In this document: piece after piece, positions 28,759 through 39,301 of the stretch
Layout: each line of letters opens with the position of its first letter
Numbering within the stretch: position 1 is the first letter of the stretch
DNA from: an uncultured SAR92 cluster bacterium
GTDB lineage: Bacteria > Pseudomonadota > Gammaproteobacteria > Pseudomonadales > Porticoccaceae
Direction of reading: 5' to 3'
Assembly: GCA_902596775.1 (NCBI GenBank)
Contig: CACJVE010000004.1
Coordinates: 24,587-88,586 of the forward strand
DNA: 64,000 nucleotides
Position numbers and translations under genes: made by a program
The notes under the pieces: generated by a model
The model's input: only the letters and a program-made list of their open reading frames with translations
Database searches by the model: none
What the model was told of the DNA's origin: nothing

Positions 28759-30252
28759 GTGAAAATAGTACTAGGAATCGATCTTGGAACGCAAAGTTTA
28801 AAAACTGTGTGCTATGACTATGATTCAAAATCACTTATTCATGTGCATGCGTCGCCACTTGAAGTTGACCGAGATGAAAACGGGAAGGCGGAGCAGAGTG
28901 CTAAAGATTGGCTTATGGCTTTGAGAGAATGCACAAGAAATATACCGATAGAAATAAAAAATAACATTGAAGCCATTGGAGTTTCAGGTCAACAGCATGG
29001 ATTTGTTGCGTTAGATGAAAATGACGAGGTTCTGGTACCGGTTAAATTATGGTGTGACACCGCGACTCAAATGGAGGCAGACAGCTTAAATAATGAACTC
29101 GGTGGCATTGATAGAGTCATTTCAATAGCGGGCAATGCAATAATGACTGGTTACACTTGCCCAAAAATACTTTGGCTCAAAAATAATCGACCTGAAGAAT
29201 ATAACAAGCTGAATACAATTCTCCTTCCTCATGATTATATTAATTTTATAATGACGGGTGTGAAGTGCATGGAGCACGGCGATGCATCTGGAACTGGTTT
29301 TTTAAATATTAAAAAAAGAAGCTGGTCTATGGAGATCTTAAGCGCTTTAGATCCAGATAGAGATCTTTCAGTTTGTCTACCTCCCTTGGTAAGGCACGAT
29401 CATTTTATTGGAAGAACATCAAAACAATTTTCGATTGATTTTGATCTGCCAGAAGGAATACCCGTCTCTTGCGGTGGTGGAGATAACATGATGGGAGCAA
29501 TTGGAACTGGAAATTTAACAGATGGCAAATTAACTATGAGTTTAGGTACCTCAGGGACTCTCTACGCATACTCTAGTAAACCCATTATCGATCCAAAAGG
29601 CGCCATAGCTGGATTTTGCAGTTCCACAGATGGTTGGCTACCACTTTTATGTACCATGAATTGTACCGTTGCAACCGAGCTAATGCGCGATTTGGTTGGG
29701 AGATCGTTAGATGAATTTAATAATGATCTCAATTCGATCCCACCTGGCAGTGGTGGTTTATTAACAATTCCATTTTTTAATGGAGAGCGAACTCCGAACT
29801 TACCGAAAGGCAAAGCATCATTGATTGGATTAACATCTCAAAATTGTACGCCTGCATATGTTTTGAGATCAGCAGTTGAAGGCGCTACTTATGCACTTCG
29901 ATATGGATTAGATGAGCTAACTGCACTTGGATTAAGGGTAGACAAAATTATATTGACAGGCGGAGGCGCAAAAAGTCCTCAATGGCGCCAAATAGTGGCA
30001 GATATTTTTCACCTACCTATTCAAATACTGAAAATCGAAGAAGGAGCCTCATTTGGGGCCGCACTTCAGGCGCTGTGGGTATTAATTCGGGAAAAAGACA
30101 AAAACATAAAATTGGATAAAATTATAACTGACCACTTGGCAGTTGATGAGGAAAAATCAACTCTTCCGAATTTAGAGTGCAAAAACATCTACAAAAAGGG
30201 ATATAGTGATTATCAAAATGCAGTAAATCAAATTATACCGCTATTCAAATAA
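28759..30252 (+). CDS. xylB: xylulokinase
   Basis: XylB phosphorylates D-xylulose to xylulose-5-phosphate for the pentose phosphate pathway. The 497-residue FGGY kinase begins with a GTG and has the N-terminal phosphate loop [11 protein letters not shown]. The substrate motif is [12 protein letters not shown] near 74-85, the catalytic base is Asp242 in [12 protein letters not shown], and the adenosine motif is [14 protein letters not shown]. The immediate neighbour xylA fixes the pentulose identity. It is the first gene of the rightward operon, 11 bases upstream of xylA, and has only a weak GAG ribosome site. Confidence 0.96.
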
Positions 30253-30263
30253 GGAAAAAGTAT

Positions 30264-31607
30264 ATGAGCAGTGACTATTTTGTTGGAAATCGTGAATATT
30301 TTCCGAATGTTAAAAAAGTAATTTTTGAGGGCAAAGATTCTGATAATCCTTTTGCATTCAAAGCATACAATGAGAGTAAAGTTATCGCTGGAAAAACGAT
30401 GCGAGAGCATCTTCGATTTGCAATATGCTACTGGCATTCGTTTTGTGCTGATGGAACAGATCCCTTTGGACCAGGAACACGAGTAAAACCATGGGATTCT
30501 AATCCAAAAGCTTTGAAAGCTGCAGAAGACAAAATGGATGCTGCTTTTGAATTATTCACTAAACTGAGTGTTCCCTACTACTGCTTCCATGATGTTGATA
30601 TGGCGCCCGAGGGAAACAGCTTCAGTGAGAGAGAGAAAAATCTCAATCATATGGTCAAACTTGCAAGTGATCATCAAAAGGCAACAGGTGTAAAATTGTT
30701 ATGGGGGACAGCCAACGTTTTTTCTAATCCAAGATATATGAATGGCGCATCAACAAATCCAAACTTTGATGTAGTTGCTCATGCAGGGGCACAAGTAAAA
30801 GCCGCTTTAGATGCAACTGTAGAGCTAGGCGGTGAAAATTATGTGTTTTGGGGTGGTAGAGAGGGATACGTCTACCAGTTCAACACCAATACAGCAAGAG
30901 AACTAGATCATTTAGCTCAATTTTTAAGAATGGCGCGAGATTATGGTCGATCAATTGGCTTCGAGGGAACTTACCTTATCGAACCAAAACCAATGGAACC
31001 AATGTATCACCAATATGATGTTGATGCACAGACGGTAATTGGGTTTTTGAGACATCATGAACTAGATAAGGATTTCAAAATAAATGTTGAGGCAAATCAT
31101 GCAACGCTTGCTGGTCACTCATTTGCGCATGAACTTCAAATGTGCACAGATGCGGGATTACTGGGTTCCATTGATGCGAATAGAGGAAATGCACAAAATG
31201 GTTGGGACACAGATCAATTCCCAACCGACCTAAATGATGCTGTTCAAGCAATGATGGTTGTCCTCGCTGATGGTGGATTTAAAAGTGGTGGACTTAACTT
31301 TGATGCGAAAGTGAGACGTGAGTCAACTACAGTGGATGACCTAGTTATGGCCCACATTGGAGGTATGGATACTTTCGCACGAGCATTGATAATTGCAGAC
31401 AATATACTAAGTAACTCGAGCATTCCCTCCAATAAAATACAACGATATAAAAGTTTTGACTCAGGAATGGGTGCTTCTTTTGAGAAGGGTGAACTCACAT
31501 TACAGCAGCTGAGAGATTATGCTGCGGAAGTGGGTGAACCGGATCAAATAAGTGGTAATCAAGAGCATCTAGAAAACATCATCAATGATTATATGTTTAG
31601 GAGCTAG
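30264..31607 (+). CDS. xylA: xylose isomerase
   Basis: XylA interconverts D-xylose and D-xylulose using two divalent metals. The 447-residue length matches the class II (E. coli/Thermotoga-like) family. The catalytic His109 and Asp112 lie in [12 protein letters not shown]. Metal ligands appear in [35 protein letters not shown] and [28 protein letters not shown] ribosome site precedes the ATG. It is cytosolic, between xylB and a sulfatase gene whose ribosome site overlaps the xylA 3' end. Confidence 0.97.
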
Positions 31608-31609
31608 AC

Positions 31610-33145
31610 TTGTTTGCTAGCAATTCTGACGCAATTCCTACTTTTAAAGTCTTTTCTTTACTAATTTCTTTATTGATCTCATATCCCGCTTTCACGGGAC
31701 AGGATCAAAACAAGACTTATTCTGATGAGGATATCGTTTCAGGAATAAGGGCATCTCTAAAAAGCGTCATAGATAGTAAAAAAGATCATTATGATAGCCC
31801 ACCGAACGTAATTCTATTTTTAGCAGACGACACAAATTGGTTTGATATTGGTCCTTATGACAGACTCTATAAGTATACGCCAAAGAATGCGATTACTCCA
31901 AATATTGATAAACTTGCACGGGAGGGAATGATATTTACTTCTGCATTTACCTCGACTGCAATGTGCTCACCAACAAGACAGCAACTATATACTGGTATAT
32001 ATCCTGTCAAAAACGGCGCTTATCCCAACCATGGTGATGCGTATGCAGGAACAAAGAGCTTGGTCCATTACTTTAAAGACAGCGGTTATCAAGTCGCGTT
32101 AGCAGGAAAAGGACATATTGCGCCTCAATCAGTCTACCCGTTCAAAAAAATTGGCAAGGAGGCAAAAGATAATTCAGGAGAGTCCACATTTGGCATTGAA
32201 GCAGTCTCTGAATTTATCAGCGATAGTCATAACAAACCATATTTCCTTGTCATCGCAAGCCATAATACTCATGGTCCTTGGTCGAGAGGTGATAGGTCTA
32301 AATACAGTGCAAAAAATATCAATGTGCCCTCTTTTATGATTGATACACCGCAGTTTAGAAATGATCTTGTCAGGTATTATGCCGAGGTATCTGATTTGGA
32401 TAGAGAGGTTGGATTGGTTGAAAACGCCCTGGCGGCAAATGGTCAGAAAGATAATACCATTTTCATATTCACTAGTGAGCACGGCGCTGGTATGCCGTTT
32501 GCAAAGTTCACTACATATGACGCTGGGCTCAAAGTCGCTTTCATCATGCGATGGCCAAATAAAATAAACGCCGACACAAAAAGTGATGCTCTTATTCAGT
32601 ATGTGGATGTTGTGCCAACACTTTTGGAACTTGCAAACAAGCAAGCTCCTGAAAATATTGATGGTAAGAGCTTTAAAAAAGTAATCTTCAATCCAGATTT
32701 ACCTCATCGTGATTTAGTATATGGTGTGCACACAACCAGAAATATAAGAGGAGGATCGAACTATCCTATCCGATCCATTAGAGATAAAACTCACAAGCTA
32801 ATATTAAATCTTTTGCATGAAAGTAAATTTGAGAATTCAGGAACTAAAGGCATCAAATTAGGTAGAGGAATGCTTGGAGATTGGTACAAGGCTGGACAAG
32901 CAGGTAACGAGAGAGCACTTGAAAAAGTAGCAAGAGTAACAAAACGCCCAAAAATGGAGCTATACAACATTCAAAACGATCCCTTCGAGGAGTATAATCT
33001 CATTGATGAACCTGGGTCCGAGACAATTGTAGAGGCACTACTGCCAAGCTTAATTGCTTGGATGGACGATCAAGGAGATCTTGGGGTACAAACTGAATTG
33101 GAAGCATGTGATCATACTACTGCGAGCTATAAAACATGCCCCTGA
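31610..33145 (+). CDS. exported sulfatase (CxPxR type), TTG start
   Basis: This 511-residue formylglycine sulfatase has a signal peptide in residues 10-30 (VFSLLISLLISYPAFTG). The modified cysteine is Cys119 in MCSPTRQQLYTG. The first metal site is ILFLADDTNWFDIG, GKGHIAP holds the Lys/His pair, and FTSEHGAGMPFAKFTTYDAG is the C-terminal metal/substrate region. The pattern is nearest to heparan N-sulfatase-like enzymes. The TTG start at 31610 is supported by a perfect AGGAG six bases upstream and by the intact signal peptide, since no ATG occurs before residue 107. It follows xylA by two bases, so it is cotranscribed with the sugar-catabolic genes. Confidence 0.92.
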   Translation: MFASNSDAIPTFKVFSLLISLLISYPAFTGQDQNKTYSDEDIVSGIRASLKSVIDSKKDHYDSPPNVILFLADDTNWFDIGPYDRLYKYTPKNAITPNIDKLAREGMIFTSAFTSTAMCSPTRQQLYTGIYPVKNGAYPNHGDAYAGTKSLVHYFKDSGYQVALAGKGHIAPQSVYPFKKIGKEAKDNSGESTFGIEAVSEFISDSHNKPYFLVIASHNTHGPWSRGDRSKYSAKNINVPSFMIDTPQFRNDLVRYYAEVSDLDREVGLVENALAANGQKDNTIFIFTSEHGAGMPFAKFTTYDAGLKVAFIMRWPNKINADTKSDALIQYVDVVPTLLELANKQAPENIDGKSFKKVIFNPDLPHRDLVYGVHTTRNIRGGSNYPIRSIRDKTHKLILNLLHESKFENSGTKGIKLGRGMLGDWYKAGQAGNERALEKVARVTKRPKMELYNIQNDPFEEYNLIDEPGSETIVEALLPSLIAWMDDQGDLGVQTELEACDHTTASYKTCP

Positions 33146-33182
33146 GTAGGGATTACTATTAGTAACTAAACGGAATTCTTTT

Positions 33183-35192
33183 ATGAAAATCAAATGTCAT
33201 CTCGCTACATCAAGATGGGTAGCAAATTCATTTCTAACATGCATTTTACTCGCTGCTAGCGCAGCTCATGGTCAGACCTCCTGGAATTTTAATGGAACAA
33301 ATCATGACTGGGAGGCCTCTAACCACTCCACAGCAAAAGCTGGAGAATCGTTTGTAACTTATGAAATAGCTGGAAAATCACCCTATCCAAACTTTGGTAC
33401 GATTGGGGCTAGTATTAATGCTGATGACTTTAAATACATATCTATAAAAATTCAAAATTTATCGCCAAATGAGCGTCTCCAACTTGTATTAAATCGCAAT
33501 AGTGATCTGAAAACTCAGTACATACCATTTAACGGCCTATCCGGGAATGATACTGAGTTTAAAACCTATAAAATAAACCTAGGTAAGAATCGAGCATGGA
33601 AAGGTATAGTTGAGGACATTACTCTTCGATTTAGAAAAAATGCTGCCGATGGTGAAGGTGTCACGGCGGGCACTGTATTAATTGACCACATTGAATTTCT
33701 CCGTGAGGGGGAGAAAAGTTCAGAATCATCAAAAAATGCGCCAATAAGAGGTATCACTCAAGTTAGCGACAAGAAAAAACAGTTAAATTTCATTCATATA
33801 ATTATGGATGATTTGAGAACTGAGGGCTTGAAAGCCTATGACGATGATGAGGCAATTACACCAAATATCGATAGACTTGCAAGAGAAGGAGTGGTCTATA
33901 AAAAAGCTTTCGCTAACTTTCCTTCTTGTGGGGCTTCAAGAGCTAGTTTCCTAACAGGTTTAAGGCCAACTCCAACTCGTTTTACACGCTATGATGCTCG
34001 AATTGATGAGGATGCACCTGGAATTAGCACACTACCCCATTATCTCAAGGAGAATGGTTACATCACCGTATCTTTGGGCAAGATTATTCATAGAAGAGGC
34101 GATACTGATGATGCCTGGAGCATACCTCCCTGGGATGCGAAATATATGGAGGGCAACAGAAGCAGCTATATGAATTATTCAAAAGAAGAAAATGTAGAGG
34201 CGTATATTACAAGTTGCAAAAAACGAAACATATGCTCTCCAAGCGGAAGTGGTAAAGGTCCTGCTTATGAGTGGAATGACGTGCCCGACAATCAGTATAT
34301 AGATGGCAAAACCGCTATTGCTGCGATAGAAACTCTTGAACAGCTAAAGGCGGCAGATATGCCGTTTTATATTGCAGTCGGCTTCGTAAAGCCACATCTT
34401 CCTTTTGCCGCACCTCAAAAATATTGGGATCTATATGACCGAGATAAAATTGAATTCTCTCCAATTCCAGATAAGCCTAAAGATGCGCCAAATCAAGCAT
34501 GGCATCAATCTGGGGAATTGAGGGAGTGGTATGATGGTATTCCTGATGTCCCAAGCAGATGGGTAGATAATGTGCCTCCAGAGACAGCTAGAATCTTACG
34601 CCATGGTTATTATGCATCAACATCATATGCTGATGCTCAAATGGGGAAAGTCTTGGACGCTCTTGATAGGCTTGGTCTTAGCGATAATACCGTCGTTATT
34701 TTTACGGGTGATCATGGTTTTAGTTTAGGAGACCATACTCTTTGGAATAAACACTCGCTATTTACGCTTGCGACTCAATCGCCGTTGATCATCCGAAAGC
34801 CCGGTGGCGAGAAAAATAAATCTGTTCCTGGCGTTGTTGAGTATCTTGATATCTATCCAACAGTAACAGAACTCGCAAACCTTCCAACTCCAGATCATTT
34901 GGAGGGTGAATCTCTCGTTGAAACGCTTGAGGATGCAGATTCACTCACAAAACCCGCAGTATATACAAGATATCATGCTGGCGAGAACATCCATACCGAC
35001 AGATATTCTTACTCTGCTTGGTTTAGTGGAGGTCGAATCACTGAGCATATGCTTTATGATCATGAGAATGATCCACTAGAGACTGTAAATTTAGTCAGTG
35101 ATCCAGAATATAAGAGTGTAATGAGAGATTTGCAGAAAAGGCTAAAGGCGCATATTAAGCAAAGAGATAGAAGAGCTGCAAGGCTTCTCTAG
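33183..35192 (+). CDS. two-domain exported sulfatase: N-terminal beta-rich (CBM-like) module plus iduronate-2-sulfatase-like domain
   Basis: The 669-residue protein has a signal peptide ending in SAAHGQ (about 15-30). Residues ~31-175 form a beta-rich module resembling a galactose-binding-like/CBM fold (opening TSWNFNGTNHDWEASNH, closing GTVLIDHIEFL). A short Ser/Lys linker follows. The sulfatase domain starts at LNFIHIIMDDLRTEG near 201, with the modified Cys249 in CGASRASFLTG and FTGDHGFSLGDH as the second metal site. It is the paralogue of the 476-residue sulfatase at 20.9 kb (shared FVKPHLPF and KYWDLYD), which lacks the module. The basic C-terminus QRDRRAARLL recalls the 545-residue sulfatase. 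The module may hold the enzyme on the polymer. Confidence 0.9.
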   Translation: MKIKCHLATSRWVANSFLTCILLAASAAHGQTSWNFNGTNHDWEASNHSTAKAGESFVTYEIAGKSPYPNFGTIGASINADDFKYISIKIQNLSPNERLQLVLNRNSDLKTQYIPFNGLSGNDTEFKTYKINLGKNRAWKGIVEDITLRFRKNAADGEGVTAGTVLIDHIEFLREGEKSSESSKNAPIRGITQVSDKKKQLNFIHIIMDDLRTEGLKAYDDDEAITPNIDRLAREGVVYKKAFANFPSCGASRASFLTGLRPTPTRFTRYDARIDEDAPGISTLPHYLKENGYITVSLGKIIHRRGDTDDAWSIPPWDAKYMEGNRSSYMNYSKEENVEAYITSCKKRNICSPSGSGKGPAYEWNDVPDNQYIDGKTAIAAIETLEQLKAADMPFYIAVGFVKPHLPFAAPQKYWDLYDRDKIEFSPIPDKPKDAPNQAWHQSGELREWYDGIPDVPSRWVDNVPPETARILRHGYYASTSYADAQMGKVLDALDRLGLSDNTVVIFTGDHGFSLGDHTLWNKHSLFTLATQSPLIIRKPGGEKNKSVPGVVEYLDIYPTVTELANLPTPDHLEGESLVETLEDADSLTKPAVYTRYHAGENIHTDRYSYSAWFSGGRITEHMLYDHENDPLETVNLVSDPEYKSVMRDLQKRLKAHIKQRDRRAARLL

Positions 35193-35214
35193 GCCCAGAT
35201 AATAATTAGCTAAA

Positions 35215-36474
35215 GTGGAATTTCGTCTATATGTCTACATAATTGCCATATTTATCACTCTATCGGGTTTATCCTCGCAATCCTTTAGCGAAAAACGATT
35301 CTATCTTGATATGGATAACAATGAATCAGTAACGAATGAGATTGATGACTATCTAGAATTAGTCGATCAAGTAATTCCGCCCGCGAATAATTATAATCGA
35401 GCTTTGAGTTGGAATTACGCCGAATACATAATGGGCCTCGGACTAATTCACCTTCAGAGAGCAGATTCGCGCCTTATTGATGCGATGTTAATAGGATCTG
35501 ACCACCTTTTAAGCAAGAGAAATGATCATCTTGATGATCTAGAGCTTTTTATTGATGAAAAATCCTTGCCAGTATGGCCTGCACTTGAGAGACGATGGTC
35601 TCTCAACAACGAGCCTGTAGCTTTTACAAATCACTTAATGACCGCAAATATTTTACAACCAATTGCACTTACCGCACTTGTTCTGGCTAACTCTGAAAAC
35701 TCCGCATATCGAAAGAAATCAAGCTATTATCTTGAACAAGTAGAAAAAGTTTTGAATGAATATTCTTTTTCCAATTTATGGTTCGATGAGATTAACAAGT
35801 TGTTTATTCATGCGAACAGTTCTCGCATTTCTCAAATCAATGAGATTTCAGAGGAAAAAATTGGAAAACCGACCTCCTATAATAGAAATTTCATGATGGC
35901 CACCGTTCTCTATTTGGTTCTGGAAACTAAGAAAATCCACAAGGAAACTGATAATAATATTATTATTGATAGATACAAAAACACGATTTCTTCAATAATA
36001 AATAACTTTAAAAAAGATATTCAAATAATTGATTACGATAATAATAATAAATACTTATTATGGAATTTTGATAATAGCAAGACTTCGGATCAGGCTCAAA
36101 CAGAAGATATCTTTCATGGTGGTTTAGTCGCATTATCACTCATGATTCTTTTTGACGACAAGAACGATTACTTCAATATAAATCAATCATTCCTACATTC
36201 TCTAAGCAACACATATTTACTCGCATTACAAAAATCGCCGCCTGCTAAATTAGAATTTTTTGAATATATTGATGGAACTGGAGATAATCTATCTGAGCAA
36301 CGCCGAGTATCAAACTTATTTTGGTGTGAGCTCTCACTGGTTAATAAAGCAATTTGGGAAGAATCGTGTGGTGTGCAACTTGAAAATGAGGGAGTCTCTG
36401 TGAGAGATGGGTTCTTTTTAGCATCCGGTATTGCATTAAAAATTAAACTCGCGAGAATGATCAGTGACAATTGA
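35215..36474 (+). CDS. exported protein of unknown function in the xylan operon (possible alpha/alpha-toroid)
   Basis: I do not recognise the family. The 419-residue protein starts with GTG and a signal peptide (YVYIIAIFITLSGLSSQSFS, about 6-25), so it is exported. The mature part is predicted to be largely helical with repeated long amphipathic helices, and has aromatic patches such as SWNYAEYIMGLGLIHL and SLPVWPALERRWSLN. There is a motif TEDIFHGGLVALSLMILF in which E, D and H cluster. Such features recall (alpha/alpha)n-toroid glycosidases and polysaccharide lyases, but I see no known catalytic signature. The middle is Asn-rich (DYDNNNKYLLWNFDN). It lies between two sulfatase genes in one operon, 22 bases after the first, which ties it to sulfated-xylan breakdown. 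Confidence 0.72.
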   Translation: MEFRLYVYIIAIFITLSGLSSQSFSEKRFYLDMDNNESVTNEIDDYLELVDQVIPPANNYNRALSWNYAEYIMGLGLIHLQRADSRLIDAMLIGSDHLLSKRNDHLDDLELFIDEKSLPVWPALERRWSLNNEPVAFTNHLMTANILQPIALTALVLANSENSAYRKKSSYYLEQVEKVLNEYSFSNLWFDEINKLFIHANSSRISQINEISEEKIGKPTSYNRNFMMATVLYLVLETKKIHKETDNNIIIDRYKNTISSIINNFKKDIQIIDYDNNNKYLLWNFDNSKTSDQAQTEDIFHGGLVALSLMILFDDKNDYFNINQSFLHSLSNTYLLALQKSPPAKLEFFEYIDGTGDNLSEQRRVSNLFWCELSLVNKAIWEESCGVQLENEGVSVRDGFFLASGIALKIKLARMISDN

Positions 36475-36490
36475 TCTAGTACACAAGAAT

Positions 36491-38131
36491 ATGCAAAACA
36501 AAAGTATTCTAGCGCGTGCGCTCCTCCTCACTTGTATTTGCTCCGCCTTTGTTGCGTCTCAATCTTATTCCGAGCAACCTCGGCCTAATATATTATTAAT
36601 AATGGCTGAGGACATGAGCTCGAGAGTCGGTGTTTTCGGCGACGAAGTCGCCCAAACTCCTAATATCGATGCCCTAGCAAGAAAAGGCACAAAATATACT
36701 AATGTATATACGACTGCTGGTGTTTGCTCTCCCAGCCGTGCAGCTCAAATCCTTGGTGTTCATCAAATATCCACTGGAGCGCAGCATATGCGTACCAGAG
36801 CCTTTAAAGAATCATCGTATCGGTCTGTGCCTCCGTCTAATATAAAGGCTTATCCAGAAATTTTAAGAGCTAATGGGTACTTTACCTTTGTGGTGAATAA
36901 ATTGGACTATCAATTCAGTGATGTCTCTGTCAGATCGGGTCCTTTCACAATTTGGGACCACGAGAGCTCAAAAGTTGCTTGGGGAAAGCGTAGTAAAAAT
37001 CAGCCATTCTTTGGGTTTGTTACATTCTATGAAACACATGAGAGCAAACTGTTTCCTCGTTATGTGGAAAGAATCAAAACAAAAATGGAAAATTACTCAA
37101 AAACGAATACTGAGGACGTCATTGTTCCTCCTTATTACCCTGATAATGAAGTTATAAGAAATGACATTGCAAACCACTATAACAATATCTCTATTATGGA
37201 TGGCATGGTTGGTGATCTGTTGACACAACTGGAAGATGATGGCCTTGAGGAAAATACAATTGTTATATGGACTACTGATCATGGTGATGGTCTTCCGCGA
37301 GGTAAAAGAGAGCTTTATGATAGCGGAATTAAGGTACCATTAGTTGTTTACTGGCCGGAGAAATTTCGTGATCAATCGATGATTGAATCCACGGTAGACA
37401 AGCTTATCAGCTTTGTAGATATTGGGCCTAGTATCCTATCAATAGCTGGCATTGACATTCCCGACTATATGCATGGATCTCCTCAACTTGATGGCGATAA
37501 AGCGGATGAGAGAAATTTTATTTATGCATCAAAAGATCGCTTAGATGAGTTCGAGTTTAGAGAAAGAGCGATTCGAGATAAAAATTATAAGTACATTAAA
37601 AACTACATGCCGGGCCGGCCAGGAGCTACGCATCTCGCATACAGAGATCAAATGCTTCTAATGCAAAACCTTTGGGAAAATTATGAGTCTGGAAAATTAG
37701 ATGTGGCTCAAAGGCAATGGTTCAATAATCGTCCAGAGCACGAGCTTTACAACATCATAGAAGATCCTTATGAGACAAAAAACTTAGCTTATCTAGAAGA
37801 ATATAAAGAGCAATTAATTGAAATGCGAAGCGCTTTAGATAAACGGCTTGGTGAACTTGAAGATATGAGCGATGAATCAGAGATTCAAATGGCAAAAAGG
37901 TTTTGGCCAGGTGGAAAGCGCCCACTCACGTCACCTCCAAGTTTTAGTTTTGGTGAGCATGGAGAGGTAATTCTAGTGCCCTCCTCCCCAAATGACTCAA
38001 TTGGTTATCAATTGAATAAGGATCCTTGGCAGTTGTACCATGAGCCGCTATTAATAAGCTCAGGCGATAAGCTTAGAATTAAAGCAGTCAAGTACGGATG
38101 GGCAGAAAGTAGTGTCATTGAAGTGCCGTGA
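36491..38131 (+). CDS. exported sulfatase (CxPxR type) with C-terminal chitobiase-like/Fn3-like domain
   Basis: A signal peptide (ILARALLLTCICSAFVAS) supports the ATG at 36491, giving 546 residues. The ORF track starts 27 bases earlier at a GTG inside the previous gene, which is also possible. The modified cysteine is in VCSPSRAAQILGVHQ near residue 79. NILLIMAEDMSSRVG carries the first metal site, and TTDHGDGLPRGKRELYDSG the second. It is nearest to heparan N-sulfatase-like members. After the sulfatase fold, a ~75-residue C-terminal segment (SIGYQLNKDPWQLY, then RIKAVKYGWAESSVIEV) looks like the CHB_HEX_C/Fn3-type domain found at the ends of glycan enzymes. It is followed after 30 bases by a GH10 gene. 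Confidence 0.9.
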   Translation: MQNKSILARALLLTCICSAFVASQSYSEQPRPNILLIMAEDMSSRVGVFGDEVAQTPNIDALARKGTKYTNVYTTAGVCSPSRAAQILGVHQISTGAQHMRTRAFKESSYRSVPPSNIKAYPEILRANGYFTFVVNKLDYQFSDVSVRSGPFTIWDHESSKVAWGKRSKNQPFFGFVTFYETHESKLFPRYVERIKTKMENYSKTNTEDVIVPPYYPDNEVIRNDIANHYNNISIMDGMVGDLLTQLEDDGLEENTIVIWTTDHGDGLPRGKRELYDSGIKVPLVVYWPEKFRDQSMIESTVDKLISFVDIGPSILSIAGIDIPDYMHGSPQLDGDKADERNFIYASKDRLDEFEFRERAIRDKNYKYIKNYMPGRPGATHLAYRDQMLLMQNLWENYESGKLDVAQRQWFNNRPEHELYNIIEDPYETKNLAYLEEYKEQLIEMRSALDKRLGELEDMSDESEIQMAKRFWPGGKRPLTSPPSFSFGEHGEVILVPSSPNDSIGYQLNKDPWQLYHEPLLISSGDKLRIKAVKYGWAESSVIEVP

Positions 38132-38161
38132 ATTAAAATCATTTAGAATTGTCAAAATAGT

Positions 38162-39301
38162 ATGAAAGAGATTAACAGGCGAAAATTTATTACTTATGGA
38201 AGTGCCTCAATACTTCCTTTGGTATTCAATTCTGCGGCGATTGCAAAAACAAAAGCGATTACGGAGTCCGGTCTAGCAGATACCTTTAAAGACAAATTTC
38301 ATATTGGAACTGCAATCTCTACAAATACATTAGAAAACAATAACTCACGCTTACTAAAGTTGATCGCCAGAGAATTCAATACGATCACAGCTGAAAATGA
38401 CATGAAATGGGGGATGATAAGACCCTCTCTTGATAAATGGGATTGGAAACTTGCAGACAAATTTGTTGATTTTGGTCGTAAAAATCAAATGCTGATGGTT
38501 GGGCATGCACTTGTTTGGCATGCGCAAATTCCGAATGACGTATTCTTTGAAAATAGTCGCCCAAGATCAAAAAAAGACCTATTAAAAATAATGAAAGATC
38601 ATATTGTAACTATGGTAGATCGATACAGGAATTCGATCGCGGTTTGGGATGTTGTTAATGAAGCTGTAGATAATGATAAGTGGCGTCGAACTAACTGGTT
38701 TAAATATATTGGAAGTGAGTATTTCGAAAAAGCGTTCCAATATGCAAGAGAGGCTGATCCAAGTGCTCACTTAATCTATAACGACTACGGCATGGATAGT
38801 CCCTCTAAACAAGACTTTCTTCTCGATGCCATCAGAAGGTTGAAAAGTAAGGGAATAAGAATTGATGGAGTAGGAATGCAATTGCATGCTGCATTAGACG
38901 GGCCAAGCGCTAGACAGATTGAGGATGCGATAGTTAAGTTCGCCAAAGCTGGCTTACAAGTTCATATCACTGAAATGGATCTAGATGTACTACCGAAGGT
39001 TGATGACTACAGTGGTGCAGAAATCAGTACGAATTATTCCTACAACGAAAAATTAAATCCTTACGTTTCAGGACTACCGGAGGAAATATCTAAATTGCAT
39101 ACAAAGAGATATACCGAACTATTTGAAGTCTTCATCAAGCATAGCGATAAAGTTGCAAGGGTGTCCACCTGGGGCACAATTGATAGTGAATCTTGGAAAA
39201 ATGGATGGCCAGTGAATGGAAGAACTAACTACCCTCTTCTCTTCGACAGAAATTATCAGCCGAAAGAAGCTTATCACTCGATTAAAAGTCTCGTTCAATA
39301 A
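38162..39301 (+). CDS. GH10 endo-1,4-beta-xylanase with Tat signal
   Basis: This 379-residue xylanase is almost only signal plus catalytic barrel. The N-terminus MKEINRRKFITYGSASILPL has a twin-arginine motif followed by a hydrophobic stretch. The barrel includes FNTITAENDMKWGMIRP, GHALVWHAQIPND, acid/base Glu167 in VWDVVNEAVD and nucleophile Glu271 in VHITEMDLDV. The C-terminal WNG-like segment is NGWPVNGRTNYPLLFD. It is a more conventional GH10 than the one at 26.4 kb, so the two probably differ in product or substrate preference. It is the last gene of the rightward operon, followed by a strong terminator. Confidence 0.96.
   Translation: MKEINRRKFITYGSASILPLVFNSAAIAKTKAITESGLADTFKDKFHIGTAISTNTLENNNSRLLKLIAREFNTITAENDMKWGMIRPSLDKWDWKLADKFVDFGRKNQMLMVGHALVWHAQIPNDVFFENSRPRSKKDLLKIMKDHIVTMVDRYRNSIAVWDVVNEAVDNDKWRRTNWFKYIGSEYFEKAFQYAREADPSAHLIYNDYGMDSPSKQDFLLDAIRRLKSKGIRIDGVGMQLHAALDGPSARQIEDAIVKFAKAGLQVHITEMDLDVLPKVDDYSGAEISTNYSYNEKLNPYVSGLPEEISKLHTKRYTELFEVFIKHSDKVARVSTWGTIDSESWKNGWPVNGRTNYPLLFDRNYQPKEAYHSIKSLVQ

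Follow-up and report, generated by a model that had tools for sequence, protein, structure and literature searches.

The 419-aa protein encoded between two sulfatase genes of an uncultured SAR92 cluster bacterium is best read as a member of an undescribed, very rare family and as a candidate new family. The window, i.e., the whole stretch of 64,000 nucleotides that was analyzed, places its gene inside an operon that appears to be directed at sulfated xylan. The explanation that we prefer, with a probability just short of even, is that of an exported glycan enzyme of a rare family with an (alpha/alpha)6-toroid fold, horizontally gained and inserted into this operon. The parts of this reading differ in strength. 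The toroid fold is probable, activity on glycans is marginally favored, and a role in sulfated xylan is conceivable, the balance tilting slightly against it.

Table 1. Coordinates in the window of the gene, its conserved segments and its neighbors.
Feature	Position	Strand	Basis or remark
Co-directional run xylB, xylA, Sulf-C, Sulf-D, 419-aa gene, Sulf-E, GH10	28759..39301	+	
Sulf-D, upstream neighbor, sulfatase with extra N-terminal domain	33183..35192	+	PF00884, 2e-41
419-aa exported protein, unassigned family, predicted (alpha/alpha)6 toroid	35215..36474	+	GTG start 35215, stop 36472-36474
Putative signal peptide, residues 1-26	35215..35292	+	Hydropathy and inspection; N-terminus of homologue also hydrophobic ahead of conserved region
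Conserved motif 1, residues 59-76 (NY.R..SWNYAEY.MGLG), presumed inner helix 1	35389..35442	+	14/18 identical with homologue
Conserved motif 2, residues 102-154 (RND.LD...WP...FTN.LMTANILQPIA), presumed loop and inner helix 3	35518..35676	+	37/53 identical
Predicted beta-hairpin, residues 269-283, just ahead of ED..HG motif	36019..36063	+	DSSP on both AlphaFold2 models; low pLDDT
EDIFHGGLVA motif, residues 297-306, start of presumed inner helix 7	36103..36132	+	10/10 identical with homologue
Conserved motif 5, residues 348-390, with invariant Cys371 and Cys385	36256..36384	+	28/43 identical
Sulf-E, downstream neighbor, sulfatase	36464..38131 (probable start 36491)	+	PF00884, 1e-42

The ORF begins 22 bases after the end of Sulf-D, exactly as a preliminary description had placed it between the two sulfatases. 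No good Shine-Dalgarno sequence was seen before the GTG, although the preceding in-frame stop is just three codons away. It is a real gene, since a homologue aligns with it over nearly its full length and the differences between the two at the three codon positions (0.435, 0.322, and 0.614 over 370 codons) show protein-level constraint. Its G+C content is 0.348, against 0.385-0.41 in the rest of the operon, while GC3 is similar; the low value thus reflects the amino-acid make-up (the protein has 40 Asn and 37 Ile) and not a foreign codon pattern. The signal peptide proposed in the same description is supported by the hydrophobic N-terminus (maximum mean hydropathy of 2.25 over 15 residues, from residue 5) and by a plausible cleavage site between SFS and E, which was located by eye.

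Concerning the neighbors, Sulf-D carries about 195 additional N-terminal residues ahead of its sulfatase domain, for which no Pfam match was found. The listed GTG start of Sulf-E overlaps the 419-aa ORF by 11 bases; the ATG at the probable start given in Table 1, 16 bases past the stop of the ORF, was judged likelier by eye. No terminator-like site was detected in the two gaps flanking the 419-aa gene. On the minus strand the window also encodes two sulfatases, a GH3, a GH10 and galM, and 3′ of the operon a TonB-dependent receptor (minus strand) is followed by an MFS_2 sugar transporter and a GH43-like gene. The names xylA, xylB, galM, GH43 and TonB receptor were given from the sequence and not from a profile search, those of xylA and xylB also agreeing with homologous loci. 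Because five sulfatases stand together with GH10, GH3 and xylose catabolism, the substrate of the locus points to sulfated xylan. A xylan cluster with sulfatases has also been reported for the gammaproteobacterial clade UBA7434 (PMC8371827).

Among curated families, none from Pfam, NCBIfam or PHROGs passed the cut-off with the 419-aa protein; PADLOC yielded nothing better than E = 0.005 and the PDB no match by sequence, so that the early impression of a protein outside every recognized family holds across these five collections. Rfam gave no match, and nothing below E = 0.001 was retrieved from a viral structure library. The sulfatase profile (PF00884) is matched by the neighbors and not by the 419-aa protein. 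Two weak candidates were rejected: GH62 (PF03664) reached 16.9 bits against a cut-off of 22.1, over only 73 residues, and is missing in the homologue, while the PADLOC Cas7b match at E = 0.005 is partial and found in one member only.

Genome searches covered overlapping sets of 58 relatives and of 392 order, 369 class, 112 family, 12 UBA1969-family and 399 phylum genomes, and a degenerate-pattern scan was extended to 85,462 species genomes, which distant members may escape because it used just two short peptides. Together these led to one homologue, in the Cellvibrionales MAG UBA1969 (DDDX01000094.1, L004 3268-4599). Apart from the two carriers, the gene was absent from every genome searched, including 111 genomes of the same family, and plasmids, phages and viral contigs contained no homologue (tblastn being included for plasmids and phages). 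Weak matches of the phylum search were attributed to chance, as the three that were inspected correspond to a CpaF-type ATPase, an ABC-transporter permease and a winged-helix regulator (named by eye); likewise, the EDIFHGG DNA pattern in viral contigs fell in three unrelated frames. The homologue is 42-43% identical and shares the EDIFHGGLVA motif, both cysteines and a hydrophobic N-terminus. The E, D and H of EDIFHGG, to which attention had been drawn at the outset, are thus fully invariant; only two sequences exist, and motif invariance is for this reason weak evidence. The two invariant cysteines would fit an exported protein, and a Cys371-Cys385 disulfide is possible.

Synteny was informative for both copies. 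In one sister genus, four genomes (G035, G028, G011, and G846) keep Sulf-D, Sulf-E and GH10 with only 10-12 bases from Sulf-D to Sulf-E and no gene between them; a TonB receptor and Sulf-C lie upstream in three of the four, the contig of G846 ending inside Sulf-D. The 419-aa gene is also absent from the other Sulf-E loci examined (eight genomes). The UBA1969 homologue stands alone, flanked by VOC and SDR genes and outside any polysaccharide locus, and in G237 and G149 these two genes are adjacent with nothing between. Since the neighbors adjoin in relatives at each site, both copies look like single-gene insertions. No direct repeats marking an insertion were found. At least two genera of the family preserve the order Sulf-C/Sulf-D/Sulf-E/GH10 (L024 3820-13021, L025 2575-16136, L027 3526-12666, window 31610-39301), and Sulf-C, Sulf-D and GH10 have been duplicated in a lineage-specific manner. 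In two of these loci xylA and a galM-like gene are separated by a long ORF of 664-780 aa (L024 14286-16280, L027 13916-16258), with no match to the window operon proteins. Additionally, the sister-genus genomes G011, G035 and G028 (L055, L056, and L057), which have the sulfatase operon, encode a GH88/105-type protein, and in L055 and L056 its gene adjoins that of a TRAP-type solute-binding protein; the genome of the window, 78% complete, yielded no GH88/105-type protein.

On its other contigs, UBA1969 encodes a GH10 with a Sulf-E-like gene and homologues of xylB, xylA and galM, a GH3 with Sulf-B (69%), two Sulf-A-like genes, and Sulf-C (49%) adjoining a TonB receptor. As to the co-occurrence with sulfatases, named as a check in the preliminary description, both carriers encode related sulfatase/GH10/xylAB systems, but the homologue is not beside that of UBA1969. 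Moreover, G197 and G237, which belong to the genus of UBA1969 and lack the homologue, have the sulfatase/GH10 system too, as far as their fragments show; co-occurrence is consequently not discriminating, and the system was discarded as evidence of a link. The gene is dispensable for the sulfatase system, because relatives without it keep the same system. A dedicated role in the xylan locus, as first implied, is weakened by the same-family genomes that have the same sulfatase operon with the two neighbors adjacent, and also by the location of the homologue outside polysaccharide loci, which the preliminary description had itself named as refuting; this is a single case (n = 1) and is softened by the system elsewhere in UBA1969.

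On another reading of these results, the gene is a mobile orphan that landed in the operon in a compatible orientation and whose function lies outside xylan, e.g., in cell-envelope or exopolysaccharide glycans or as a niche or interaction protein. We consider this a distinctly less probable, though serious, account: it agrees with two lone insertions in otherwise conserved and unrelated neighborhoods, with the absence of the gene elsewhere among the searched genomes, with the relatives that keep the sulfatase system without it and with a KdkA-like kinase fusion two genes downstream of the UBA1969 homologue, whereas the tight co-directional packing (gaps of 22 and 16 bases), the export signal and the related systems of both carriers fit use within the operon. 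The fusion itself (UBA1969 L004 5527-7674) is a 715-aa protein with a KdkA-like N-terminal part (NCBIfam PRK01723, only at E = 0.0026) and a C-terminal part resembling a PslG/Asl1-type glycosidase by eye, with no Pfam match at 1e-4; a 62% identical copy is located at L050 1873-3951.

Structure prediction with AlphaFold2 from the two-sequence input was of low confidence (mean pLDDT 49.4 with pTM 0.57, and 48.5 with pTM 0.55). Both models, built from different leading sequences, share some 12 helices arranged as hairpins, with one beta-hairpin ahead of the EDIFHGG helix, also at low pLDDT. The best natural Foldseek matches were mainly (alpha/alpha)6 enzymes, namely PL5, GH116, linalool dehydratase-isomerase, GH105 and GH88 (4q88), none of them at E ≤ 0.001, and unrelated helical membrane proteins such as TehA were returned as well. 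Specifically, PL5 Smlt1473 (7fhv) headed the matches of the first model (probability 0.99, E = 0.04), and the GH105 ulvan glucuronyl hydrolase 4ce7 reached probability 0.97 (E = 0.17, low-confidence model). A helical protein with a possible toroid had been anticipated, and helix count and Foldseek matches of these low-confidence models agree with a toroid, which is probable. Of the five segments of loop plus presumed inner helix, four are 60-78% identical to the homologue and the fifth 47%, against 17-32% in outer segments, all drawn after seeing the data. By the helix limits of the model, conservation is 0.555 in inner and 0.336 in outer helices, a contrast reached by 22 of 384 circular shifts, and conservation peaks in the N-terminal halves of the inner helices (0.652, with 0.345 for outer ones). 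This contrast supports the toroid in a suggestive, not strong, manner.

Toroid folds can serve as binding scaffolds, and the position of the gene between operon sulfatases would suit a non-catalytic periplasmic protein that binds glycans or assists sulfatases, such as a chaperone or capture protein. We regard this as improbable: the best conserved motifs are presumed to face the cleft and contain acidic residues, which is more typical of an enzyme, related operons exist without the gene, and the Pfam search of the protein gave no carbohydrate-binding or SusD-like match.

According to the preferred reading of a horizontally gained enzyme, the gene would have been acquired singly and inserted into the short Sulf-D/Sulf-E gap of a pre-existing sulfated-xylan operon, with which it is presumably co-transcribed. 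The protein would act as a single domain in the periplasm or outside the cell, and a central cleft may bind an oligosaccharide. The cleft would be lined by the conserved motifs at the starts of inner helices (SWNYAEY, FTN.LMTANIL, NR, EDIFHGG, SNL.WCEL, and RDG). Homology singles out no catalytic residue, and an acidic residue of the ED pair, possibly together with the His, may take part in catalysis. Such an enzyme could remove or cleave a substituent that the sulfatases and the GH10, GH3 and GH43 enzymes do not handle. A further step, that of a new CAZyme family of (alpha/alpha)6 toroids with ED..HG acting on a sulfate-bearing or otherwise substituted xylo-oligosaccharide beyond the reach of the standard operon, is speculative and rather unlikely. 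If the protein is an enzyme, it would add a sequence family to the toroid CAZymes and illustrate how marine bacteria extend sulfated-xylan degradation via single genes added to a stable operon; it is an expressible target with clear residues to mutate. Should the gene instead be an unrelated passenger, it offers a clean case of a rare gene inserted in a tight operon gap with the operon unbroken.

Compared with known toroid enzymes, the protein resembles the GH105/GH88 unsaturated glucuronyl hydrolases (4ce7, 4q88) in its predicted single-domain (alpha/alpha)6 toroid and similar size, and these too belong to marine polysaccharide degraders; it differs from them in its motif set and in having no sequence or profile similarity. 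The PL5 lyases (Smlt1473) share the predicted alpha/alpha toroid and use an Asn-His pair. A possible counterpart is the TNH motif (138-140), the His of which is Leu in the UBA1969 homologue, so that the pair is not conserved. A very divergent GH88/GH105 hydrolase or PL5-type lyase, which the best Foldseek matches would suggest, is hence very unlikely, as there is no Pfam match to PF07470 or PF05426 and hhalign gave a probability of 0.2% over 12 columns for GH88/GH105 and at most 0.6% for individual proteins of toroid type (GH88/105, PF05426 hits, and a GH76-like protein), negatives of limited weight because the 419-aa profile consists of two sequences. Finally, in the excerpt of PMC6794258 considered here, marine Bacteroidetes loci predicted for sulfated xylans combine, like the window, GH10, GH3, GH43 and several sulfatases in one locus. 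The window has a TonB-dependent receptor with no SusD-like gene identified, and to the patterns in that excerpt, which include no such protein, it adds the 419-aa gene.
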